Under the pieces are notes generated by a model. That model searched no databases, had not been told where the DNA came from, and worked only from the letters and a program-made list of their open reading frames with translations. Positions 3,288-63,611 of a stretch of DNA of 64,000 nt are shown piece after piece; the first letter of the stretch is position 1, and the number at the start of each line of letters is the position of its first letter. Source of the stretch: Methanomassiliicoccaceae archaeon DOK (GTDB lineage Archaea; Thermoplasmatota; Thermoplasmata; Methanomassiliicoccales; Methanomethylophilaceae); assembly GCA_009911715.1 (NCBI GenBank), contig CP047880.1:434001-498000 (forward strand), written 5' to 3'. The translations under genes were made by a program, and so were the position numbers.

Positions 3288-3660
3288 CCGGTACGAGCTC
3301 GTCCCGACCGCCAGGCAGAGGGGTTCCAAGCCGCCGCAGGGCTGGGTGCAGCTCGCACCTGGAATGAACCCCAAGCGCAGGACGATGACCGAGGGGTACC
3401 TCAACCAGAGGATGCCTAGGGGCAATACCATTGCCATGAATCAGAACTACGTGATGAAGGTCCTCAGCAATCCGAAGACCCCCAGGGAGAACCGCGAGGT
3501 CGTCATCGCCTATGTCCTGAACCATCCGGACAAGTTCACGCCTCTGGCGGATCAGACCGATGACCCCGTCCAGAATGAGTGGGCCAGGAAGAAGAACGGC
3601 AATGCTAATCGCGGGTTCATCAAGGAGTTCAGGAACTCTTTCGGGAGGGTCCGCAGATGA
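3280..3660 (+). CDS. Hypothetical basic protein
   Basis: 126 residues, basic, no recognised domain. It begins inside the preceding gene (8-base overlap) and ends in an ATGA overlap with the next one, so it is the middle gene of a three-gene cassette (2814-3875). Its real-gene status rests on these couplings and on consistent codon use. Confidence 0.5.
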   Translation: MPDRYELVPTARQRGSKPPQGWVQLAPGMNPKRRTMTEGYLNQRMPRGNTIAMNQNYVMKVLSNPKTPRENREVVIAYVLNHPDKFTPLADQTDDPVQNEWARKKNGNANRGFIKEFRNSFGRVRR

Positions 3661-3875
3661 AGGAGAAGCTCAACAGTCATGGTTTCCCAAAGGACATCAT
3701 GATAGACTATGATGTTGACTGTGGGAAGATCTCCTTCGGAGCGACGATGGAGCTTGTGGGCACGTTCGACATGATCGAGGATGACTACGGATTCATCTTC
3801 GCGGATGGCGAGCTCTCGGTGACCATCACGAAATCCGCGATGGAATCCATGTTGAAGCTGATTCCCAAGGCTTGA
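3657..3875 (+). CDS. Hypothetical small protein
   Basis: 72 residues, starting with an ATGA overlap of the preceding stop. The predicted secondary structure is mixed, with alternating hydrophobic and acidic strands. No family recognised. A hairpin followed by a T-rich run lies 27 bases after its stop, which would end this cassette. Confidence 0.5.
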   Translation: MKEKLNSHGFPKDIMIDYDVDCGKISFGATMELVGTFDMIEDDYGFIFADGELSVTITKSAMESMLKLIPKA

Positions 3876-3901
3876 AATCCTATATTCCCAACAAACTTTT
3901 T

Positions 3902-3928
3902 AGGGGTCTTCGGACCCTTATTTTATTT
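3902..3928 (+). terminator. Hairpin plus T-rich tract after the 2814-3875 cassette
   Basis: 7-bp stem AGGGGTC (3902-3908) / GACCCTT (3913-3919, one G-T pair) closed by a TTCG tetraloop and followed by ATTTTATTT. Confidence 0.55.
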
Positions 3929-3956
3929 CCCATAATGATATTTTACCAACATAATA

Positions 3957-3964
3957 GTATAAAT
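3957..3964 (+). promoter_or_regulatory. TATA box of the AbrB-domain gene
   Basis: GTATAAAT 22 nt before the ATG at 3987. The spacing supports 3987, not 3966, as a leaderless start. Confidence 0.5.
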
Positions 3965-3986
3965 AATGAAATTTCGATGTGGTTTC

Positions 3987-4997
3987 ATGCAGGTCAAGAG
4001 GGCTGTGAAGACTGTCAGCAAGACGGGTGATTCGCTGACAGTCGCCATCACCAAGGAGGCCAAGGCACTCGGTCTGGACAAGGGTGATTCGGTGACCATC
4101 ATGGTTGGGGATCTTTCTCCCGAAGAGATTCGTAATTTCGATCTCGCGATGTCGCTTTCCAATCGTAACGCATTCTACACCAATCAGTACTGGCTCAACT
4201 CTTCTGACCATTACATAGACGGTTCGAAAATTGAGGACATGAGCGACACACTCGATCCAGATGTCATGCTCGAGACGCAGGAGAGACTGTATGCGTTCAG
4301 GTGGTTCAAGGAGAGGGCCGAAAGGTTCATCCGCGAGCGTATCACGGGCCCCCACGCATTCTATTCCGATTCTCAGCGCTCATTCATAACGAAGTTCATG
4401 CCTGTGCTGGAGCCGGACGATCGTTCCAACGATTTCACCAAGACCCGTTATTACCTGGAGATCCTGGAGGACGCCCTCAAGGACTCCTACACTCTGGACT
4501 GTCCTCTCAATTCAGTCACCAGTATCAGCGCTTCTGTAGCCAGAGCTCTCAAGGACATCAGGGAGGTTGAGGGTTTGGATGACGGTGCCATCGACGAGAA
4601 GGTCCGTGAACTGAACAAGAAGTGGGAGGAGGAGAATACCAAGAAGCGGTATCCGGACACATGGTACTTCTCGATTTCAGTCACCTATGAGTTCAATGGA
4701 ACGGACTACGATCCCACAGGCTATCCCGAGTTCAAGCTCTATGAGGGACCTTATAAGAAGTATGTCGAAGCCATCGTAGATGAGTATGATGCCCATATGG
4801 CGGGTGAATATCAGGAGAGGTCGTCTATTGTGATCGGCCCCTTCGGTACGAAGGATGATGCCACCACCATCATGTCCTATCTGAAGATGGATGCCCTTCG
4901 CAACAAGACCCTGGGAACCATGGATTATCTGAAGAAGGTCAAACCGCTCGCATACGAGCTGATGGATTCTCTTGACAACAACGGTGATGTCATATGA
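3987..4997 (+). CDS. AbrB/SpoVT-type N-terminal domain protein with unknown C-terminal region
   Basis: 336 residues from the ATG at 3987. Residues about 1-45 (VKTVSKTGDSLTVAITKEAK, then a DKGDSVTIMVGD segment) look like a swapped-hairpin AbrB/MazE DNA-binding domain. The remaining ~290 residues are mixed alpha/beta and not recognised. AbrB domains usually occur in transcription factors and antitoxins; a protein this long is unusual for either. The 3' end overlaps the next gene (ATGA). It sits just outside the minus-strand defence operon and is convergent with it, so a role in the same island is possible but unproven. Confidence 0.55.
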   Translation: MQVKRAVKTVSKTGDSLTVAITKEAKALGLDKGDSVTIMVGDLSPEEIRNFDLAMSLSNRNAFYTNQYWLNSSDHYIDGSKIEDMSDTLDPDVMLETQERLYAFRWFKERAERFIRERITGPHAFYSDSQRSFITKFMPVLEPDDRSNDFTKTRYYLEILEDALKDSYTLDCPLNSVTSISASVARALKDIREVEGLDDGAIDEKVRELNKKWEEENTKKRYPDTWYFSISVTYEFNGTDYDPTGYPEFKLYEGPYKKYVEAIVDEYDAHMAGEYQERSSIVIGPFGTKDDATTIMSYLKMDALRNKTLGTMDYLKKVKPLAYELMDSLDNNGDVI

Positions 4998-38749: not shown

Positions 38750-39547
38750 ATGACTTCCGAACTTATCTTCGTGGGACTCGGCCTCAGCGGCACAGACGGA
38801 ATGACCGTGAAGGCCTTCAACGCACTGAAGGAATGCGACAAGATCTACGCCGAGTTCTACACCTCGATGCTCATCGGCACCAAGGTCGAGGACCTGGAGG
38901 CCGCCCTGGGCAAGAGGGTGCATGTCCTCTACCGCGCACAGGTGGAGGAGTGCGACGACGTCATCAAGGATGCCATGGAGATGAGGGTCGGCTTCATCAC
39001 CGCCGGGGACACGATGTCCGCAACCACCCATGTGGACCTCAGGATCCAGGCCGCCGAGGCCGGGATACCCGTCAGGGTCTTCCACGGGATCTCCATATTC
39101 TCCGCCTGCCCCACATCCCTCGGGCTGCAGCACTACAAGTTCGGCAGGACCGTGACCCTCCCCTTCCTCGAGGAGAACTACCATCCCAAGTCCCCCTATG
39201 ACCACATCAAGGAGAACAAGGACAGGGGCCTGCACACGATGATCCTCCTGGACATCAGGGCGGATGAGCTCAGGTACATGACCGCCCACCAGGCCATAGA
39301 GTGGCTCATCGAGGGGGAGAAGGCCTGGGGAGAGGGTCTCATCGACGACAAGACGCTGCTCTGTGTCGCATCTCAGGTCGGATCGCCCAACGAGAAGGTG
39401 TTCGCCGGCTACCCCCAGGACCTCCTCAAGATGGACCTCGGGGAGCCCCTGCACACCCTGGTCCTCCCGGGCAATCTGCACTTCATGGAGGCATTCGCCC
39501 TCGTGAGGTTCGCCGGCGCCCCCGAGGAGATCATCGAGGACGAGTGA
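38750..39547 (+). CDS. dphB: Diphthine synthase
   Basis: 265 residues, standard length. The N-terminal SAM-methylase motif FVGLGLSG, GDTMSATTH, and the TLPFLEENYHPKSPYDHI segment are typical. It methylates the modified histidine of elongation factor 2 in diphthamide synthesis. A TATA-like TTTAATAT at 38720-38727 puts the transcript start close to the ATG, so it is probably leaderless. Confidence 0.93.
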   Translation: MTSELIFVGLGLSGTDGMTVKAFNALKECDKIYAEFYTSMLIGTKVEDLEAALGKRVHVLYRAQVEECDDVIKDAMEMRVGFITAGDTMSATTHVDLRIQAAEAGIPVRVFHGISIFSACPTSLGLQHYKFGRTVTLPFLEENYHPKSPYDHIKENKDRGLHTMILLDIRADELRYMTAHQAIEWLIEGEKAWGEGLIDDKTLLCVASQVGSPNEKVFAGYPQDLLKMDLGEPLHTLVLPGNLHFMEAFALVRFAGAPEEIIEDE

Positions 39548-39655: not shown

Positions 39656-40585
39656 ATGGAAAAGAAACAGATGTACGCCGCGGTTGCCGCCGTGGTTGTC
39701 GTGATCATTGTCGTTGCTGCAGGCGTCTGGTACATGACGAGCAACAACGGCGGATCGAACGAATCCTCTGAGACCGGGGATTCCTATTATTTCTACCTCG
39801 ACGGGATGGGGGACCTGAACGGATGGTACACCGCACAGGGATCCGATGCCGAGGTTGCCCTCAAGGCCGCCCTCGATGAGGCCGGTGTCGAGTACAACAT
39901 CTCTAACGGATGGATGTCCAGCATCGGCGACTGTGTCGCGGGTGCAAACGGACTTTATCTCGGGACTTATGTCTACACGGCGAACACTATTGAAGATCCC
40001 ATCGAGGACTATTTCGTCAACGGTTCTGTTCTGAACGAGAGCGCCGGAAACATCATCTATGTCACATACAGCACATACACAATGGACGAGTACGGTGTGA
40101 TGTTTTACGATGTCAACCCCCATTCCACGACCGATGCCAACCTGATGTCCACAGGCCCCTTCGCTTCTGATTCCTACAGCCCTCTGTCGTATGATGACAC
40201 ATACTGGTTCTATCTCGACGGGATGGGGGACCTGAACGGATGGTACACCGCACAGGGGTCCGATGCAGAGGTTGCCCTCAAGGCCGCCCTCGATGAGGCC
40301 GGTATCGAGTACAACATCTCGAACGGATGGGTGTCCAGCATCGGTGAATGCATCCCCGGTGTTGGAGACAAGTACATCGGCTCCTTCGTCTACACCTCGA
40401 ACACGACAGACAACGCTTACCAGACATACTTCGGGACCGGACCCGCACTGAATCAGGCCATCGGGAACATCGTATACCTCACATATTCGACGTACACCTT
40501 CGTCGACTACACCATGAGCTACGATCTCAACCCATACAACACGACCAGTGACCTGATGACCACAGGCCCCTTCGCAACCGCTTAA
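39656..40585 (+). CDS. Membrane-anchored surface protein with internal tandem duplication
   Basis: 309 residues: a short N-terminal membrane anchor (about 6-28, AAVAAVVVVIIVVAAGVWYM), a linker, then two copies of a ~139-residue domain (YFYLDGMGDLNGWYTAQGSD start; TGPFA end). The copies begin 417 bp apart and are nearly identical over the first ~130 nt (39793 and 40210). No known family is certain; the GSDAEVALKAALDEAG helix and the wall-like beta segments suggest a DUF4430/transcobalamin-type fold, weakly. It opens the ABC uptake locus and would sit outside the cell. Confidence 0.6.
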   Translation: MEKKQMYAAVAAVVVVIIVVAAGVWYMTSNNGGSNESSETGDSYYFYLDGMGDLNGWYTAQGSDAEVALKAALDEAGVEYNISNGWMSSIGDCVAGANGLYLGTYVYTANTIEDPIEDYFVNGSVLNESAGNIIYVTYSTYTMDEYGVMFYDVNPHSTTDANLMSTGPFASDSYSPLSYDDTYWFYLDGMGDLNGWYTAQGSDAEVALKAALDEAGIEYNISNGWVSSIGECIPGVGDKYIGSFVYTSNTTDNAYQTYFGTGPALNQAIGNIVYLTYSTYTFVDYTMSYDLNPYNTTSDLMTTGPFATA

Positions 40586-40634: not shown

Positions 40635-41993
40635 ATGGATGACCGCTCCCGCGTGACTCTTTCTATAGCCATCGTCTTGGCAGGCGTTCTACTAGCGGTC
40701 GCTGCGGCATCCCTGGTTTCGGAGGCAGAGACCGACCAGGCCAGCGGGACCGTCATCGACTACGGCGACCGCGACACTCTGTGGACGGACGCCGACCTGT
40801 CCGGATACGGCACCGCCCTCGATCTCCTGGAGTACGCATGCGAGTTCAACGGGCTCTCCGTCACATTCGACGATGACGGGGCGATCACCGAGATCGGGGG
40901 AGTGGCCAACACGGACACGGCCGAATGGGGCCTCTGGGTGGTCTATCCCGGATCGATCGAGTGGGTACATCTGGATGCGCCATACGACTACGACCCGGAG
41001 GAGTTCACCATAACGTCCTGGTCCTATGTGGCCGAGGGCGAGGAGCCGACCGTCGCCGTCGACTACTCGGGCAATCCCATATACGGATACCAGCAGAAGT
41101 TCAGGGTCGTGTCGCTCTCACCGTCCATCACGGAGATCCTGGCATCGGTCAAGGCGGAGAACGTCGTCGTCGGCGTCGACTCCTACTCCAACTATCCCCA
41201 GTCTATAGCAGATGCGGCGGCATCGGGGGACATCGCGGTGGTCGGATCGTACACCAGCCCGAGCTTCGAGCTCATAACGGGGACGAATCCCGACGTGGTC
41301 TTCGCCGATTCGTCCCAGAGGTCCCACACCAACATGGTATCGCAGCTGCGCTCGGCATCGGTGGACTCCGTCCTCCTCTATCCGGGGGAGGACCTGGAGA
41401 GCATCATGGACAACATCTTCATCGTGGGGACCGTGATCAACTACGGCATGGCCGCGGAGGAGGTCATAGACGACACCTACGAGGTGATCGACCTCCTCGC
41501 CGACAAGGTCTTCACGCCCGAGGCCGGGGGGACCGTCGATCTCATGATATCCCTCGATCCCGACATAAGCCCGTGGGTGTCCGGCTCGGACACATACATG
41601 AGCAGCATATCTTCACTCTTCAATTCAAACAACGTCTTCTCCGAATGGGGCGGCTGGGTCCATCTGACCTCGGACAGGATCCCGTACGCCAACCCAGAGA
41701 AGATAATCATCATCACGACGGAGTACTCCGCTACGCAGGAGGAGTACGATTACCTCTACGAGAACCTGCCCGCCCAGTGGAAGGACACGGACGCCTGGAG
41801 GAACGGGGAGGTCTACGTCATCTGCGAGAGCGCCGCCGACCTGGTCCAGCGCTTCGGACCCAGGACGGCGCAGGTGGCCGAGCTGACGGCCATGATCCTG
41901 CATCCGGACGCCTTCGACACGGAGGTCCCCAAGATCATCGGGGACGACTACGAGGACTATCTGGAGTTCAGCACCTACATGAGCTACGATTGA
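40635..41993 (+). CDS. BtuF/FepB-type substrate-binding protein with DUF4430-like N-terminal domain
   Basis: 452 residues. N-terminal anchor (about 7-30). Residues about 35-125 look like a DUF4430 domain (GYGTALDLLEYACEFNGL, then WGLWVVYPGS). From about residue 155 the class III periplasmic-binding fold begins (RVVSLSPSITEILASV ... VVGVDSYSNYP; GSYTSPSFE; VFADSSQR). These proteins capture iron-siderophore or cobamide for a FecCD permease. The permease-fusion gene starts 9 nt after the stop, so it is an operon. Cobamide as substrate is inferred from the setting. Confidence 0.8.
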   Translation: MDDRSRVTLSIAIVLAGVLLAVAAASLVSEAETDQASGTVIDYGDRDTLWTDADLSGYGTALDLLEYACEFNGLSVTFDDDGAITEIGGVANTDTAEWGLWVVYPGSIEWVHLDAPYDYDPEEFTITSWSYVAEGEEPTVAVDYSGNPIYGYQQKFRVVSLSPSITEILASVKAENVVVGVDSYSNYPQSIADAAASGDIAVVGSYTSPSFELITGTNPDVVFADSSQRSHTNMVSQLRSASVDSVLLYPGEDLESIMDNIFIVGTVINYGMAAEEVIDDTYEVIDLLADKVFTPEAGGTVDLMISLDPDISPWVSGSDTYMSSISSLFNSNNVFSEWGGWVHLTSDRIPYANPEKIIIITTEYSATQEEYDYLYENLPAQWKDTDAWRNGEVYVICESAADLVQRFGPRTAQVAELTAMILHPDAFDTEVPKIIGDDYEDYLEFSTYMSYD

Positions 41994-42002
41994 GGATTGT
42001 CA

Positions 42003-44927
42003 ATGAACGGTAAGGCACTGGCATCGATGGCGGTCGTCGCCATACTTCTCGTCACAGCGGTCTGCATCGTCCCACCGTCGGATGCGACGGGGGACACGGA
42101 CGTGCTGTTGGACCACGGAAACGGTTCCGTCGAATGGACGCAGTCCTCCGGAGGCACGGTGGAGGACGTGCTCGCCGATGCGATGATCGGGCTCGGGGTC
42201 GATTTCGAGATATCATCCGGCACGATCTCCGTGGACGGTGTCTCCTCCAAGACGGTCGGGTCCTCCTCCAACGGAGGGTCTCTCGAGGAGTCCGGAGCGA
42301 CGGGGGCGACGGTCACCACGGAGTGGCACGTCTTCCTGTGGTACGGCTCCTCATGGGTGGAGACGGACGAGCTGTCCGTTCCGGCCGACGCGTCCGCGGT
42401 GGCGCTGGCGTTCTATCCCGACGGGATCGCGCCGGTGGTGACGCCGGACCACCCCTACGCTGTGACGATGTCCAGAGGGGATTCGTCGAACACAGGGAAC
42501 TTCGATGCCGACTACTCCTCCGGGGAGGAGTACGAGGTGACATGGTCAGAGACCGGGACCGCCCATGCCAACATCCTCTACGCCGGAGGATACGTATTCC
42601 AGAAGTACGGCATCGACTCCACAGGCACGGCAAGGGTCGTGTGCATCGACGGGGAGACCGGGGAGCACGTCTGGGAGTTCGAGTTCACCAGCGGCTCCAA
42701 CTACGAGTCGTCCACCCCGCTCATCGTCGGCGACTGGATATACGTCGCGACCATGACCGGGTACATCTACAGGATTCCGCTCTACGAGGGTCCCGGCGAG
42801 AACAACGCCAACGTGACGTCCATAGGCGGCGTCCCGTTCTCGGAGGCGAGCCCCGTGGAGGCCGTGCTGAAGGACTTCGAGGTCGGCAACACCTACGACT
42901 CGGGATTCTCGTCCATGGTCTTCGACTCCGGGGTCATCTACGTGACCCATTCCAACGGCATGGTCTACTGCTTCGACACCGACCTGAGCCTCATATGGTC
43001 CCAGATGCTGGACGGGAGCACATACCTGGTCGCCCCCACCGTCTACGACGGGTACCTCTTCACCGGCGCGCTCGACGGGCGTCTCTACGTTCTTGACGCG
43101 GTCGGGGGAGGGATCGTCGCGGACACCACGGTGGCCCAGTACAGGTACCAGTCCAAGGTCTACGGGGGCGTGGGGCAGGTCGCCGTCCAGCCCACGGGGA
43201 ACGGGACGTACACGCTGTACATGACGTTCTCCGATGGACTCGGGATGAGCCAGATCAACTGCGGGTTCGCGATATACGAGTTCTCCCCGAGCGGAAACGT
43301 GCTCGTGGAGAGGTACAGGAACGAGGACCTCGGCGACATGGGCAGGTACATCCTGCCGGTTGACACCCCCGATTTCAGGGGCGTGTACTTCGTCGCCGCA
43401 CCCGGCTCGGGAACCAACCTCTACCGCATAGACTCCGCTGGCAACCTTGAGACGATGACGGAGGGACTCGCGGAGATCCACTCCGCACCGGTGCTGGCGG
43501 ACGACCGCTACATCTACCTGGTCAGCTACTCGTCCTCGGACCCCATCTACCAGATCTCCCTCGACGGGACGATCGTAGGAACCGCCTCCTGTCCGTCCGG
43601 CGTGCGCAACTTCAACATGATCCCGCTCGTCGTCCTCGGCGACACGATCTTCGGCGGGACAGACTCCGGTATCTACAGGTTCGACGGCGTGTTCCCTGTC
43701 TATGTGGCACCCTCGCTCGAGCAGGGCCAGCCGCTGATCCTCATCATAGCCGAGATCGTCGCGGCGATCCTCGTCGCCCTCGGCCTCGTGTACGCCGTCC
43801 TGAGGTTCAAGGGACATGAGAAGCCCTTCAACTACCTCAAGACCTCGTTCCTCCACTACCTCTACGGTGACGACCAGTCCCACAACACGAGGAACAAGCA
43901 CAGGCTCAAGTTCATCATAGTCATCGGCGCCATCCTGACGTTCGCCGCTTTCACGCTCTGCCTGTGCGTGGGGTCCACCTCGATTGAGAACCCGGTGGAG
44001 GCCTACTCCGCGCTGTTCTCGGCGATATCCAAGGGAGGCGTGGGCCTGGACTCTCTGGAGACCACGATATACGTCTCAAGGCTCCCGCGCACGATCGCCG
44101 CGCTCGCGGTGGGGATCGGGCTGTCCGTGGCCGGATGCATCTACCAGGCCATCATCAGGAACCCTCTGGTCGACCCGTACATCATGGGCGTGTCCTCGGG
44201 TGCCGGGGTGGCGGCCATCGCCGTCATAGCGTTCGATTTCACGTTCTTCGGGATGTTCTCGTCCCATTCGATATTCCTGACAGCCATAACAGCCTGCATC
44301 GGAGGCCTCATCGCCTTCGCGTGCACCATGCTCCTGGCGGAGAAGTCGGGAGGCTCGGCGATCAACTACGTCCTGTCCGGAGTGGTCATAGGGCTCGCGT
44401 TCTCCGCCGTCCAGACCATCATGCTGACCATGGCCGGCAACAAGCTTAGCAACGCGCTGTCGTGGCTGTACGGCTCGTTCGCGGAGGTCACATGGTCACA
44501 GGTCGGAATCATCGTGTTCCTGGCCGTGTTCCTCTCCCTGGTCCCGCTGATATGGGCCAAGGAGCTGAACCTGGTGCTTCTGGGCGAGGACCAGGCCCGC
44601 CAGATGGGTCTGAACGTCAGACGTTTCAACAGGTGGATGCTGATCCTCGCCTCGATCCTGACCTCGGTCTGCGTGGCGTTCTGCGGAGTCATCGGCTTCG
44701 TGGGACTGGTCATCCCGCACCTGTGCAGGATGCTCCTGGGAAGCGACCACAGGATGGTGCTTCCCGCCTCGATATGCTTCGGAGGCGTGATGCTGATGCT
44801 CGCCGACCTTCTGGCGAGGACAGGCTACTACGGCATGGAGCTGCCGGTCGGCGCCATCACCACGGTGATAGGCATACCCGTGTTCGCCTATCTCCTGATC
44901 AAGAGGGGGAGGATGTACGATGGATGA
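42003..44927 (+). CDS. Fusion of ectodomain, PQQ-type beta propeller and FecCD/BtuC permease
   Basis: 974 residues from the ATG at 42003 (GAGG Shine-Dalgarno at 41992-41995; the TTG at 41997 is rejected). Order: signal/anchor helix (about 5-25), a DUF4430-like domain (about 30-135), a propeller with PQQ-type blades (about 160-560: ARVVCIDGETGEHVWEF, WIYVATMTGYIYRI, GMVYCFDTDLSLIWS), one transmembrane helix (about 577-600), a basic cytoplasmic linker, and a complete FecCD permease (about 634-974: SRLPRTIAALAVGIGLSVAG, GVSSGAGVAAI, GFVGLVIPHLCR). FecCD permeases normally lack any ectodomain. The 3' end overlaps the ATPase gene by 8 bases. Confidence 0.85.
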   Translation: MNGKALASMAVVAILLVTAVCIVPPSDATGDTDVLLDHGNGSVEWTQSSGGTVEDVLADAMIGLGVDFEISSGTISVDGVSSKTVGSSSNGGSLEESGATGATVTTEWHVFLWYGSSWVETDELSVPADASAVALAFYPDGIAPVVTPDHPYAVTMSRGDSSNTGNFDADYSSGEEYEVTWSETGTAHANILYAGGYVFQKYGIDSTGTARVVCIDGETGEHVWEFEFTSGSNYESSTPLIVGDWIYVATMTGYIYRIPLYEGPGENNANVTSIGGVPFSEASPVEAVLKDFEVGNTYDSGFSSMVFDSGVIYVTHSNGMVYCFDTDLSLIWSQMLDGSTYLVAPTVYDGYLFTGALDGRLYVLDAVGGGIVADTTVAQYRYQSKVYGGVGQVAVQPTGNGTYTLYMTFSDGLGMSQINCGFAIYEFSPSGNVLVERYRNEDLGDMGRYILPVDTPDFRGVYFVAAPGSGTNLYRIDSAGNLETMTEGLAEIHSAPVLADDRYIYLVSYSSSDPIYQISLDGTIVGTASCPSGVRNFNMIPLVVLGDTIFGGTDSGIYRFDGVFPVYVAPSLEQGQPLILIIAEIVAAILVALGLVYAVLRFKGHEKPFNYLKTSFLHYLYGDDQSHNTRNKHRLKFIIVIGAILTFAAFTLCLCVGSTSIENPVEAYSALFSAISKGGVGLDSLETTIYVSRLPRTIAALAVGIGLSVAGCIYQAIIRNPLVDPYIMGVSSGAGVAAIAVIAFDFTFFGMFSSHSIFLTAITACIGGLIAFACTMLLAEKSGGSAINYVLSGVVIGLAFSAVQTIMLTMAGNKLSNALSWLYGSFAEVTWSQVGIIVFLAVFLSLVPLIWAKELNLVLLGEDQARQMGLNVRRFNRWMLILASILTSVCVAFCGVIGFVGLVIPHLCRMLLGSDHRMVLPASICFGGVMLMLADLLARTGYYGMELPVGAITTVIGIPVFAYLLIKRGRMYDG

Positions 44928-45726
44928 TGTCCCGCTGCTCGAGCTCCGCGATGTGGAGAAGACCTACGAGGACGGCTACAGGGCCGTCCGCGGGGTGTCC
45001 TACAAGCTCGGCCCCGGCCAGCTGGTGGGCCTCATAGGCCCGAACGGATGCGGCAAGACAACGATGATGAAGTGCATCAACAGGATGCACGATCCGACGG
45101 CAGGCGACATCCTGATAGACGGGGAGTCGGTCCTCGACAAGACCCCCGGCGAGATCGCCAGGAAGGTGGCCAACGTTCCCGCCGAGCTGAGGGGCAGCTT
45201 CGGCCTGACGGTGTTCGAGACCGTCATGCTCGGCAGGTACCCGTATCTCAAGAACGTCTGGTGGGAGCCGAAGGAGGACGAGGACATGGTCCTCGACGCG
45301 CTGGAGAAGTTCGGCGTCGCCCATCTGAAGGACCGTGCGGTCGGAGCCCTGTCGTCCGGTGAGAGGCAGAGGGTCCTGATCGCCAAGGCCTACGTGCAGC
45401 AGCCGAGGCTCATGCTGGTCGACGAGCCCACGTCCCATCTCGACATGAAGTACAAGCTGGACGTCATGGAGTACCTCAACGCCATGGTGAAGAAGGACAT
45501 GACCGTGCTCGTGGCCGAACACGACATCTCCCTGATGGCGAGGTACTGCGACACCTGCATCATCATGAGGAAGGGGGAGATTGTAGGCATGGGCGACCCG
45601 AAGAAGGTCATAACCCCCGAGCTCATCGAGGACGTCTACGAGGTCAGCGCATCGGTCGGGTTCGACGACGACGGGGAGCTCTTCGTGCTGCCAAAGAGGT
45701 ACGTCCGCGGCCACGACACACTTTAA
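44920..45726 (+). CDS. FecE/BtuD-type ABC transporter ATPase
   Basis: 268 residues. Walker A GPNGCGKTT, signature LSSGERQRV, Walker B LMLVDEPTSHLD, and switch histidine in VAEHDIS. It is the motor of the FecCD-type importer encoded just upstream, with which it overlaps. The last gene of the locus; the Trm5 gene starts 24 nt later and may be read from the same transcript. Confidence 0.93.
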   Translation: MDDVPLLELRDVEKTYEDGYRAVRGVSYKLGPGQLVGLIGPNGCGKTTMMKCINRMHDPTAGDILIDGESVLDKTPGEIARKVANVPAELRGSFGLTVFETVMLGRYPYLKNVWWEPKEDEDMVLDALEKFGVAHLKDRAVGALSSGERQRVLIAKAYVQQPRLMLVDEPTSHLDMKYKLDVMEYLNAMVKKDMTVLVAEHDISLMARYCDTCIIMRKGEIVGMGDPKKVITPELIEDVYEVSASVGFDDDGELFVLPKRYVRGHDTL

Positions 45727-45750: not shown

Positions 45751-46749
45751 ATGGTCAGATGCGTGCGCGTGCCGAAGCGCGAAGGGGAGCAAGTGCGCTC
45801 AGCGCTGTTCGCGGAGGGTCTGCTGGACCTCGGTGCGAGGATCCGCTCCGAGGGTGACTGCCTGCTGATCCCGGTGCTCTGCGACTCGTACATGGACTAC
45901 GAGGTCGTGGATGCGGACATGGCTGTGCAGGAGCAGCGCCCCACGGACTACCGCGATGTGGCGGACGTGCCAGAGGATCTGAGGGACCATCTGCCATCGT
46001 CGTTCGATGTAGTCGGGGATGTGGCAATGATCAAGCTCCCCGACGAGCTGAGGCCATATGCGTCCCAGATAGGCGAGGCGCTTCTGAAGGTGAACCGCAG
46101 CATCCGCATCGTTTTCGAGGACCACGGAGTCAAGGGGGAGTTCAGGATCCGCGACCTGGAGAGGATCGCGGGGGAGGGGACCTCCGAGACCGTCCACAAG
46201 GAGTTCGGGGTCAGGCTGTACACGGACCCCGCCAGGGTGTACTTCAATCCACGTCTGAGCAGTGAGAGGGCCCGCATCGCAGGGCTGGTCCGTGACGGGG
46301 AGACGGTCATAGACATGTTCGGAGGGGTCGCCCCGTTCGGCACGGTGATGTGCCGTCTGGCGAAACCGGAGGTCGTGTACTCGATCGACCTCAACCCTGA
46401 TGCGGAGCACTTCGCCAGGATAAACGCGGAAAGGAACCACATCTCCAATCTGCATCCGATGACGGGTGACTCATCGGAGCTCGTCTACGGATTGCCAATG
46501 GCCAATCGCATAATCATGAACCTCCCGCAGATCGCGGACAGGTTCCTGCCCATTGCCCTGGACAGGCTGGAGCACGGCGGCGTCATCCACATGTACAAGA
46601 TCATCGAGAGGGAGGACTTCCCGCCGTTCCTGGAGAGGCTGGTGTCGGATGCCGCGTCGGGAGGGCACTCCATCTCCATAGAGCACTCCGAACTCAAGAC
46701 TTACTCCCCGACGATGAGCGTCTACTCTCTGGACATCACGAAGGGCTGA
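45751..46749 (+). CDS. trm5: tRNA (guanine37-N1)-methyltransferase Trm5-like
   Basis: 332 residues, Trm5/TYW2 class. D1/D2 N-terminal parts (VRCVRVPKREGEQVRSAL) precede a class I SAM methylase: VIDMFGGVAPFG (motif I), VYSIDLNPDAEHFARINAERN (motif II), and RIIMNLPQIADRFL (the N-L-P motif). It methylates G37 of tRNA to m1G, the first step toward wyosine derivatives. Homologs with a changed N-terminus can be TYW2, so the substrate is not certain. Confidence 0.85.
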   Translation: MVRCVRVPKREGEQVRSALFAEGLLDLGARIRSEGDCLLIPVLCDSYMDYEVVDADMAVQEQRPTDYRDVADVPEDLRDHLPSSFDVVGDVAMIKLPDELRPYASQIGEALLKVNRSIRIVFEDHGVKGEFRIRDLERIAGEGTSETVHKEFGVRLYTDPARVYFNPRLSSERARIAGLVRDGETVIDMFGGVAPFGTVMCRLAKPEVVYSIDLNPDAEHFARINAERNHISNLHPMTGDSSELVYGLPMANRIIMNLPQIADRFLPIALDRLEHGGVIHMYKIIEREDFPPFLERLVSDAASGGHSISIEHSELKTYSPTMSVYSLDITKG

Positions 46750-61290: not shown

Positions 61291-61456
61291 CCTGACCGAG
61301 AACATCCGCACGGATCCCCGTCCGGGCGTCAATGTAATCTCCCTGATTCCAATCGGCCAATATCTGTGCCTACGACGCCATCGGTTATAAAGAGCCAGAC
61401 CTGCGGAAAGATGATGGATGGAACCATCAGCCGATAGCATAAATACGGTGATTCCG

Positions 61457-62581
61457 ATGCGTCCGGCAATGACGAAGGGGCGCATATCACCTAGAAGCGA
61501 ACTGGCTAACCTCCCCCGCACCGTTCACGGCGGGAAGGGATGGATGCTCGACAACGTCGAGGACTACAGCCACAACCTGAATCCCTTCGGACCCCCAGAG
61601 GACCTGGCGGAGATTGTCGCCTCGGCCATACCGCAGGTCGGCCACTACCCGGACGACTCCTGCGCGGAGCTCAGGGAGGTCATCGCAAAGACGTTCAACG
61701 TCGCAACGGATTGCATCTCCGTCGGCGCCGGATCGTCAGATATAATTAGGAACGTCCCCAACACGTTCTACGAGAGGGGCGACAGGGTCGTCATCCCGAG
61801 TCCTTCGTTCGCCGAGTACACCCAGCAGTGCAGGATTGTCGGCGCCGAGGTCCATCCGTTCGAGCTTCAGCCCGAGGAGGACTTCAGGATCGACGCCGAC
61901 CGTCTGCTGGAGGCCGCCGAGGGCGCCAGGGCGGTGTACATATGCAACCCCAATAACCCCACCGGCAGGGTGGAGCCCCGTGACAAGCTCGTCCGCATCG
62001 CCCGCGAGCTCGAGGAGCAGGGCACGCTCCTTTTCCTGGACGAGACGCTCCTGGAGCTGGTCCCCGGCTACACGGACATAACGCTGTCCGGGATGGTGAG
62101 CCGCTTCTCCAACCTCATTGTCGCATCCTCACTCACGAAATCGTTCGCGATCCCCGGCATAAGGATAGGGTTCGGGTTCTCCAACCCCGATATCATCGCC
62201 GAGATGGACAAGGTCCGCATGACATGGAACGTGGGCGAGATAGAGCAGACCGTGGCGACGGTCCTGCTGAGGGACAAGATGGACTACGTGGATCATGCGG
62301 CGGCCGTCATGGCCGAGGAGTCGGAGCTCATGAACTCCTCGCTCGGGGAGATCGGTTTCCCCGTGGGAGCCGTTTCTGACTCGTTCTTCTACTTCAACTC
62401 CCTCGAGTCGCTGGGGATGACCGGCGCCGAGTTCAACAAGAGGATGATCACGCACGGGATCTCCGTCCGCGACTGCGCATCCTTCGGCGACCGCTTCACG
62501 AATTACATACGCTACAGCGTGAAGGACAGGGAGCGCAACTGCAGGTTCATCGCTGCCGTAGACGCAGTCATCAACGGGTGA
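61457..62581 (+). CDS. cobD: PLP aminotransferase-fold protein, probable CobD L-threonine-O-3-phosphate decarboxylase
   Basis: 374 residues from the ATG at 61457, chosen for a GGTGAT Shine-Dalgarno at about 61447; the ATG at 61418 is also open. Fold type I PLP enzyme of the HisC/CobD family: HNLNPFGPP, NPNNPTGRV, and the PLP lysine K228 (SSLTKSFAIPGIRIG). The sequence alone does not separate HisC from CobD; position directly before cbiB points to CobD, which supplies (R)-1-aminopropan-2-ol phosphate for the cobamide lower-loop linker. Confidence 0.75.
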   Translation: MRPAMTKGRISPRSELANLPRTVHGGKGWMLDNVEDYSHNLNPFGPPEDLAEIVASAIPQVGHYPDDSCAELREVIAKTFNVATDCISVGAGSSDIIRNVPNTFYERGDRVVIPSPSFAEYTQQCRIVGAEVHPFELQPEEDFRIDADRLLEAAEGARAVYICNPNNPTGRVEPRDKLVRIARELEEQGTLLFLDETLLELVPGYTDITLSGMVSRFSNLIVASSLTKSFAIPGIRIGFGFSNPDIIAEMDKVRMTWNVGEIEQTVATVLLRDKMDYVDHAAAVMAEESELMNSSLGEIGFPVGAVSDSFFYFNSLESLGMTGAEFNKRMITHGISVRDCASFGDRFTNYIRYSVKDRERNCRFIAAVDAVING

Positions 62582-62588
62582 TGGTCCA

Positions 62589-63611
62589 ATGGTTCCGTGG
62601 CTGGACGCGATACTGGTCGTCGTTCTGGCCCTGGCCATAGACAGGTACATCGGGGAGGTCCCGAACTCTGTCCACCCGCTCAGGTGGATGGGCAACATCC
62701 TCGCCGCGATCGACAGGCATGTCGGCTGCAGGGGGTCCAGGAAGGCCGTCCTGATTGGGTTCCTTTCCTACCTCCTCGTGTTCATACTGTTCGCCGGCAT
62801 CGGCCTCCTGTTCACGTCCCTCGTGCGCTACGGGCTGTCCGAGACGGTGTCCCCGCTCGCGGGCGAGATAGCCTGGATCGTCCTGACGGCTGTCCTGTTC
62901 AAGGTGTCCTTCGCGATATTCTCGTTCAGGAAGCACTGCGATCCCATCTGCGCAGACTTGGACGCCGGCAGGACCGAGGACGCGGCCGCCAAGGTGCAGA
63001 TGATCGTCAGCCGCAACACGAAGGGCATGGACGCCGAGCACATCGCGTCGTCATGCTGCGAGACGGTGACCGAGAACCTGGTCGACAGCGTCTATTCGCC
63101 CGTCCTGTACTTCGGGATCCTGGGCCTGCCCGGAGCGGTCATGTTCAGGTGCGCCAACCTCATGGATGCCATGTGGGGGTACCTCAACGACAAGTACGCC
63201 CTCCTGGGACGCTTCCCAGCGAGGTTCGACGACGTCCTTGGCTTCGTGACGTCGAGGGTGTCGCCCTACTTCATAGCGCTGGCCGGGATGATCCTCGGGA
63301 TGGACTGGAGGGCCTCGGTGCCCGCCGCCAAGGCCGAGCACACCATGACCCCCAGCCCCAACAGCGGATGGTCGATGACCGCCGCTGCCGCGGTTCTGGG
63401 CATAAGCATGGAGAAGCGCGGGGTCTACGTCATGAACGGAGGGCATCCCATGCCGACGACCGACGATGTGAGGAGGTGCTGCCGTCTGATCGAGCTGTCG
63501 GCGATGATCTACCTCCTTCTCGTGGGCATCATCCTGTACGGGCTCATCGGCATCCAGGTGCAGCTGTTCGTCGAGGATGCCGTCTTCGGATTCTGGGGGT
63601 CGGTGTTCTGA
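62589..63611 (+). CDS. cbiB: Adenosylcobinamide-phosphate synthase CbiB
   Basis: 340 residues, membrane protein with about 4-5 helices. CbiB signatures: LAIDRYIGEVPNSVHPLRWMG, ASSCCETVTENLVDSVYSPVLYFG, and WRASVPAAKAEHTMTPSPNSGWSMTAAA. It joins adenosylcobyric acid to aminopropanol phosphate. Follows cobD by 7 bases and overlaps the cbiZ start. Confidence 0.95.
   Translation: MVPWLDAILVVVLALAIDRYIGEVPNSVHPLRWMGNILAAIDRHVGCRGSRKAVLIGFLSYLLVFILFAGIGLLFTSLVRYGLSETVSPLAGEIAWIVLTAVLFKVSFAIFSFRKHCDPICADLDAGRTEDAAAKVQMIVSRNTKGMDAEHIASSCCETVTENLVDSVYSPVLYFGILGLPGAVMFRCANLMDAMWGYLNDKYALLGRFPARFDDVLGFVTSRVSPYFIALAGMILGMDWRASVPAAKAEHTMTPSPNSGWSMTAAAAVLGISMEKRGVYVMNGGHPMPTTDDVRRCCRLIELSAMIYLLLVGIILYGLIGIQVQLFVEDAVFGFWGSVF

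Follow-up and report, generated by a model that had tools for sequence, protein, structure and literature searches.

The gene at 42003..44927 of the analysed stretch of DNA (64,000 nucleotides, hereafter the window) encodes a 974-residue protein in which a signal helix, a DUF4430-like domain, a PQQ-type beta-propeller and a transmembrane helix precede a FecCD/BtuC permease. The product is probably the permease of a BtuCDF-type (type II ABC) corrinoid importer of gut methanogens, with the ectodomain acting as a permanently attached capture module. This reading joins computed features (the domain architecture and how widely it is conserved, the operon, the occurrence of both split and fused states, the kinship of the permease with the BtuC of cobamide operons, and the retained docking arginines) to a corrinoid substrate, an outside location and a two-step capture that we infer. 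A preliminary description of this DNA had proposed such a fusion of a permease with an outside ectodomain, and the fusion proved real by its one reading frame, its full-length relatives, and the Pfam and AlphaFold2 results.

The reading frame of the fusion gene was open from end to end, and all window features described here lie on the forward strand. The signal helix (residues 1–29; 42003..42089) was recognized from the sequence, and its hydrophobic N-terminus was also conserved in relatives. It is followed by the DUF4430-like domain (residues 30–150; 42090..42452), supported by alignment, hhalign, AlphaFold2 and Foldseek, and by the propeller (about residues 175–565; 42525..43697), which matched Pfam PQQ_2 with an E-value of 1.4e-11 and 44.9 bits against a cut-off of 27.6. 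The AlphaFold2 model of the ectodomain (residues 30–576) reached a pLDDT of 93.6 and a pTM of 0.93, and its closest solved structures in Foldseek were the PQQ-type propellers YxaL, BamB and tetrathionate hydrolase, in agreement with the PQQ-type propeller proposed in the preliminary description. The blades numbered about eight, as read from DSSP strands only, and PQQ-dependent enzyme families matched the propeller only weakly in profile searches. The transmembrane helix linking the ectodomain with the permease, previously placed at about 577–600, was found at residues 578–600 (43734..43802), and fusions of other genomes carry a helix at the equivalent place. A basic linker without a methionine start, presumably cytoplasmic (residues 601–636; 43803..43910; 8 K/R versus 3 D/E), leads into the permease domain (residues 646–967; 43938..44903), which carries the docking arginines and matched FecCD (PF01032) with an E-value of 1.5e-79 and 267.7 bits against a cut-off of 26.5, covering profile positions 2–311 of 311. 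The N-terminus of BtuC is cytoplasmic; since a further helix follows the signal helix here, the ectodomain would face outside the membrane. Acidic residues far outnumber basic ones in the ectodomain (69 D/E versus 17 K/R), a strongly negative charge that fits the capture of cationic corrins; against this, acidity is a common feature of secreted archaeal proteins. The genome holding the window, a single contig of 1,889,135 bases, encodes six more FecCD permeases, all without an ectodomain.

The fusion is a conserved feature of the family and not a one-off. A search for propeller-FecCD fusions in other genomes, as the preliminary description had suggested, gave a single full-length match in about 55 of the 147 Methanomassiliicoccales genomes, the full-length relatives being 35–82% identical, while about a dozen more genomes had longer fusions. 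Inspection of twelve loci with broken matches revealed a signal helix, an ectodomain, a transmembrane helix and a permease in one frame in every case, the ectodomain of the longer fusions extending to about 800 residues. By eye, the longer fusions appear to add two DUF4430-like domains between the propeller and the transmembrane helix (L089, residues about 560–800). The dN/dS values were 0.03–0.08 for the permease, 0.11–0.22 for the propeller, 0.13–0.32 for the transmembrane helix and linker, and 0.27–0.62 for the N-domain, indicating that the frame across the junction is constrained and that the ectodomain changes much faster than the permease. A frameshift or assembly error joining two genes, envisaged earlier as a refutation, was ruled out by the many full-length relatives from independent assemblies, the conserved junction and the dN/dS values. 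The companion objection that all relatives might have separate genes did not apply to the many full-length fusions; the genes are separate in paralogous clusters. An internal permease start was rejected in view of the absence of any ATG between codons 539 and 728 of the fusion gene. It is highly improbable that one chain is cut after the ectodomain, or that the permease is started separately inside the gene, so as to make the fusion structurally meaningless; separate genes do work in the paralogous clusters and the junction has a few GTG codons nearby, but these codons lack an obvious ribosome site, no ATG is available, the transmembrane helix and basic linker are conserved, and the tree shows several origins of the fusion.

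Outside Methanomassiliicoccales, the ectodomain profile had no match among 400 genomes of the class, and the N-domain had one weak match outside the order (G283). Long open frames beside some permeases proved to be standalone permeases of 378–416 residues. One fusion homologue (L022; G042:C20:1474-4347) contains one in-frame TAG, which could be pyrrolysine read-through, a pseudogene or an error; Methanomassiliicoccales archaea use pyrrolysine. Another homologue (G095:C66:7505-10549) contains one in-frame TGA.

The relationship of the N-domain to DUF4430 was indirect. Pfam DUF4430 (PF14478) gave no match above cut-off to the fusion N-domain and no match across the whole genome holding the window, and the direct hhalign comparison of the N-domain with DUF4430 was weak (48.9%). 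The fusion N-domain aligned with the N-domain of the adjoining binding protein at 95.6%, and the latter aligned with DUF4430 sequences from other archaea at 96.7%; the propeller controls gave 0.1–0.5%. A separate AlphaFold2 model of the N-domain had a pLDDT of 89.7, and its Foldseek neighbours were weak (E 0.1–0.3), with ubiquitin-like folds among them, haptocorrin ranking fifth and 3u7z sixth. A PDB search with the N-domain profile returned only unconvincing matches. Based on the missing Pfam match, the indirect profile relation and the weak structural neighbours, the domain was labelled DUF4430-like, that is, a probable distant relative and not a member of the DUF4430 family. The same label in the preliminary description is only partly right: its support comes from the profile link via the binding protein, and not from the direct comparison or Pfam. 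The C-terminal region of transcobalamin has been described as a DUF4430 domain (PMC4350170), and the beta domain of transcobalamin, when isolated, binds both cobalamin and cobinamide (PMC5599065).

The fusion gene lies between a gene for a substrate-binding protein (40635..41993), with an N-terminal anchor helix, a DUF4430-like domain (34–152) and a Peripla_BP_2 domain (158–396) identified by Pfam and hhalign, and a gene for a BtuD/FecE-type ATPase (44920..45726; Pfam ABC_tran), which shares 8 bases with the end of the fusion gene. Two synteny anchors flank the operon, namely the diphthine synthase gene dph5 (38750..39547; TIGR00522 above cut-off) and a TRM5/TYW2 tRNA methyltransferase gene (45751..46749; Pfam and synteny). 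The order of binding protein, fusion, sometimes a second permease, and ATPase was conserved in relatives. In nine loci the second permease directly follows the fusion, which suggests a heterodimer there and, in the window, a homodimer with two ectodomains. In BtuCDF, the BtuC arginines R56, R59 and R295 take part in docking of the BtuF binding protein. These correspond to R693, R696 and R939 in the fusion; across 40 fusion rows, R693 and R696 were invariant and R939 was R or K. Because the docking arginines are retained, the ectodomain appears to supplement the binding protein rather than replace it.

Corrinoid is the best-supported substrate, by association through the permease tree and the gene context. 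Permease operons of relatives contain cobD, cbiB, cobS, cobY or cbiD/cbiG/cbiJ, the CobD and CobY assignments being best matches below curated cut-offs. One locus (L141) carries cbiG and cbiJ followed by binding protein, permease, ATPase, cobD and cbiB, and another (L159) carries cobY, cobS, cbiB, cobD, ATPase, permease and binding protein. A third (L150) encodes binding protein, two permeases, ATPase, cobS and cobY with no ectodomain, and a fourth (L158) was assigned to a cobamide operon only by its sequence similarity to these three. L111 has an uninterrupted series of propeller, binding protein, permease, ATPase, cobD and cbiB. The two L150 permeases nest within the fused and tandem clades, respectively, and placement outside was rejected (p-AU 0.0015), so the L150 permease of the fused clade appears to have lost its ectodomain. 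The dph5 and trm5 genes that flank the window operon recur at two other loci: in L159 they adjoin a btuFCD-cobD-cbiB-cobS-cobY operon, and in L112 an ECF transporter accompanied by a true DUF4430 protein and by a propeller protein. Within the window, a cobD-like threonine-phosphate decarboxylase gene (61418..62581; TIGR01140 best, E 1.2e-70, below the curated cut-off) lies about 16 kb downstream, followed by the adenosylcobinamide-phosphate synthase gene cbiB (62589..63611; PF03186; TIGR00380 above cut-off), and cobS of this genome lies just past the window end. The cobamide operons of relatives, the nesting of L150, the dph5/trm5 synteny and the genome's own cobD, cbiB and cobS together point to corrinoid.

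Several observations weigh against the capture reading on this side. The cobD-cbiB pair of the window lies 16 kb off, outside the operon, and the systems in the cob operons of L141, L150, L158 and L159 lack any propeller. The genome contains cbiD, so import is not its sole corrinoid source, and the argument that missing corrin synthesis would imply import was dropped. Import of another large metal chelate, heme or siderophore, is quite improbable. FecCD permeases are common to all these substrates, and the best-scoring solved structure for the permease was FhuB, as the best-scoring match of the binding protein was an iron-binding protein; however, the permease clade has several members in cobamide operons, one of them nested in the fused clade, and the best NCBIfam permease model was the BtuC-type NF007081, although its 224.6 bits fell below the equivalog cut-off of 461. 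Of the two substrates named in the preliminary description, cobamide is thus favoured by the permease tree and the cobamide operons of the nearest relatives, and siderophore is disfavoured.

The ectodomain also occurs outside the fusion. In about 20 related clusters it forms its own gene (about 620–660 residues) between the binding protein and the permease, and in L121 a split cluster and a fused cluster occur within 18 kb of one contig. In L111, found in one genome, the propeller, PKD domains, a DUF4430-like domain and the binding protein are joined in one 1045-residue frame. The permease beside this fusion (G008, 3644–4675) has one in-frame TGA and may be broken or mis-sequenced. The permease tree contained one large fused clade and at least two isolated fusions (L080 and L085) among split relatives, a topology that would require several changes of state. 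Since the ectodomain and the permease are separate adjoining genes in paralogous clusters, the fusion is best seen as one state of a modular system, and since the ectodomain lies between, or is fused to, the binding protein and permease genes, it would functionally belong with both.

Similar components accompany transporters of another class. Families f3 and f6 have a protein of DUF4430-like or DUF4430-plus-propeller type beside a true DUF4430 protein, EcfT (CbiQ) and a double EcfA ATPase. ECF-type clusters that include a DUF4430 protein as well as a propeller protein were found in other families of the order (L112, L113, L114, L116, L117 and L124); they contain EcfT, a double EcfA and, where examined, an S component, which Pfam identified in L117. 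These clusters are candidate corrinoid importers, and one type of ectodomain would then serve both ECF and ABC importers. We tentatively raise the possibility that a transcobalamin-like domain and a PQQ-type propeller form a capture module that binds corrinoid independently of BtuG, is interchangeable between the unrelated ECF and type II ABC importers, has been fused repeatedly and works in a two-receptor relay. If true, the module would have been fused repeatedly to a permease or a binding protein, and two receptors would relay the corrinoid at one archaeal membrane.

In the proposed importer, the fused permease would pair with itself, or with the second permease of some relatives, and work with the products of the adjoining genes, the ATPase and the DUF4430-like/Peripla_BP_2 binding protein. 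The binding protein and the ectodomain, each anchored, would both face out at a single membrane, where the ectodomain may raise the concentration of corrinoids (cobamides or cobinamide) at the permease mouth. It would either bind the corrinoid itself, like BtuG in function though not in family, and pass it to the anchored binding protein, or hold that protein in place. The binding protein would still dock on the permease with the bound corrinoid, and ATP hydrolysis would drive import as in BtuCDF.

It is rather unlikely, yet worth weighing, that the ectodomain has no ligand contact and is a docking platform that holds the binding protein or adhesin-like surface proteins over the permease, as a BamB-like scaffold, with corrinoid still being imported. 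The closest propeller structures are BamB and YxaL and not the B12-binding BtuG, the N-domain falls below the Pfam DUF4430 cut-off with weak Foldseek matches that include ubiquitin-like folds, and all of these count against the capture reading. The arginines and the binding protein are both kept, so that normal delivery continues, and the ectodomain evolves much faster than the permease. The split clusters adjoin large repeat-rich surface proteins: those at L145–L148, L151–L153 and L156 lie beside very large surface proteins, which reach 2380 residues and contain leucine-rich and Listeria-Bacteroides repeats. Against a mere platform, the DUF4430-like domain is common to the ectodomain and the binding protein and is probably a distant relative of a corrinoid-binding fold, and a similar propeller protein accompanies an ECF transporter, a type that lacks a binding protein of this kind. 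The capture module is retained as the preferred reading.

The importer resembles E. coli BtuCDF in its FecCD-type permease, BtuF-like binding protein, BtuD-like ATPase and conserved docking arginines, but its permease has an extra transmembrane helix and a 550-residue ectodomain, and its binding protein is anchored and has an added DUF4430-like domain. Bacteroides BtuG, too, is a propeller outside the cytoplasm that partners a corrinoid transporter (PMC10404256, PMC6143338), and corrinoids bind to an acidic face of the BtuG2 propeller (PMC10404256). However, BtuG is a lipoprotein with seven blades that forms the lid of an outer-membrane TonB-dependent barrel, whereas the propeller described here sits on an inner ABC permease in archaea, which have no outer membrane; BtuG was not matched by profile search of PDB sequences and was absent from the best 50 folds listed. 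The N-domain shares distant profile similarity and weak fold similarity with the beta domain (DUF4430) of transcobalamin, haptocorrin and intrinsic factor, but it lacks the alpha domain, falls below the Pfam cut-off and is fused to a propeller and a permease. In GlnPQ and OpuA, an extracytoplasmic domain is also covalently joined to the permease (PMC8025302, PMC11065425); those importers belong to type I, and their fused domains are themselves binding proteins, whereas the present system has a separate binding protein and a fused domain of another fold.

A survey of Methanomassiliicoccales described the diversity of BtuC and a btuCDF cluster next to adhesin-like proteins, and tied the BtuC repertoire of the order to rumen competition for B12 (PMC10804542); in the portions of that survey consulted, the ectodomain and the fusion are not mentioned, and the words propeller and fused are absent from the main text. 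In the literature consulted, searches on DUF4430, on fusions of FecCD with a propeller and on propellers in this order turned up no account of the layout, in line with the earlier remark that no such transporter was known to have been described. A capture domain built into the importer, if true, would explain a competitive edge for B12, and would form an archaeal parallel to Bacteroides BtuG and animal transcobalamin. Methanomassiliicoccales produce methane via corrinoid-dependent methyltransferases.

Upstream of the binding protein, the gene at 39656..40585 encodes a membrane-anchored protein, likely an accessory protein, with two tandem repeats that hhalign related distantly to the DUF4430-like domain (94.2% with the fusion N-domain, 83.3% with the binding-protein N-domain and 3.0% with DUF4430 itself). 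Homologues were present at the equivalent position in close relatives, the orthologues sharing only about 40–45% identity. Within the gene, a 154-base stretch (39791–39944 versus 40208–40361) was repeated with 92% identity at a spacing of 417 bases, which suggests a recent duplication or gene conversion.
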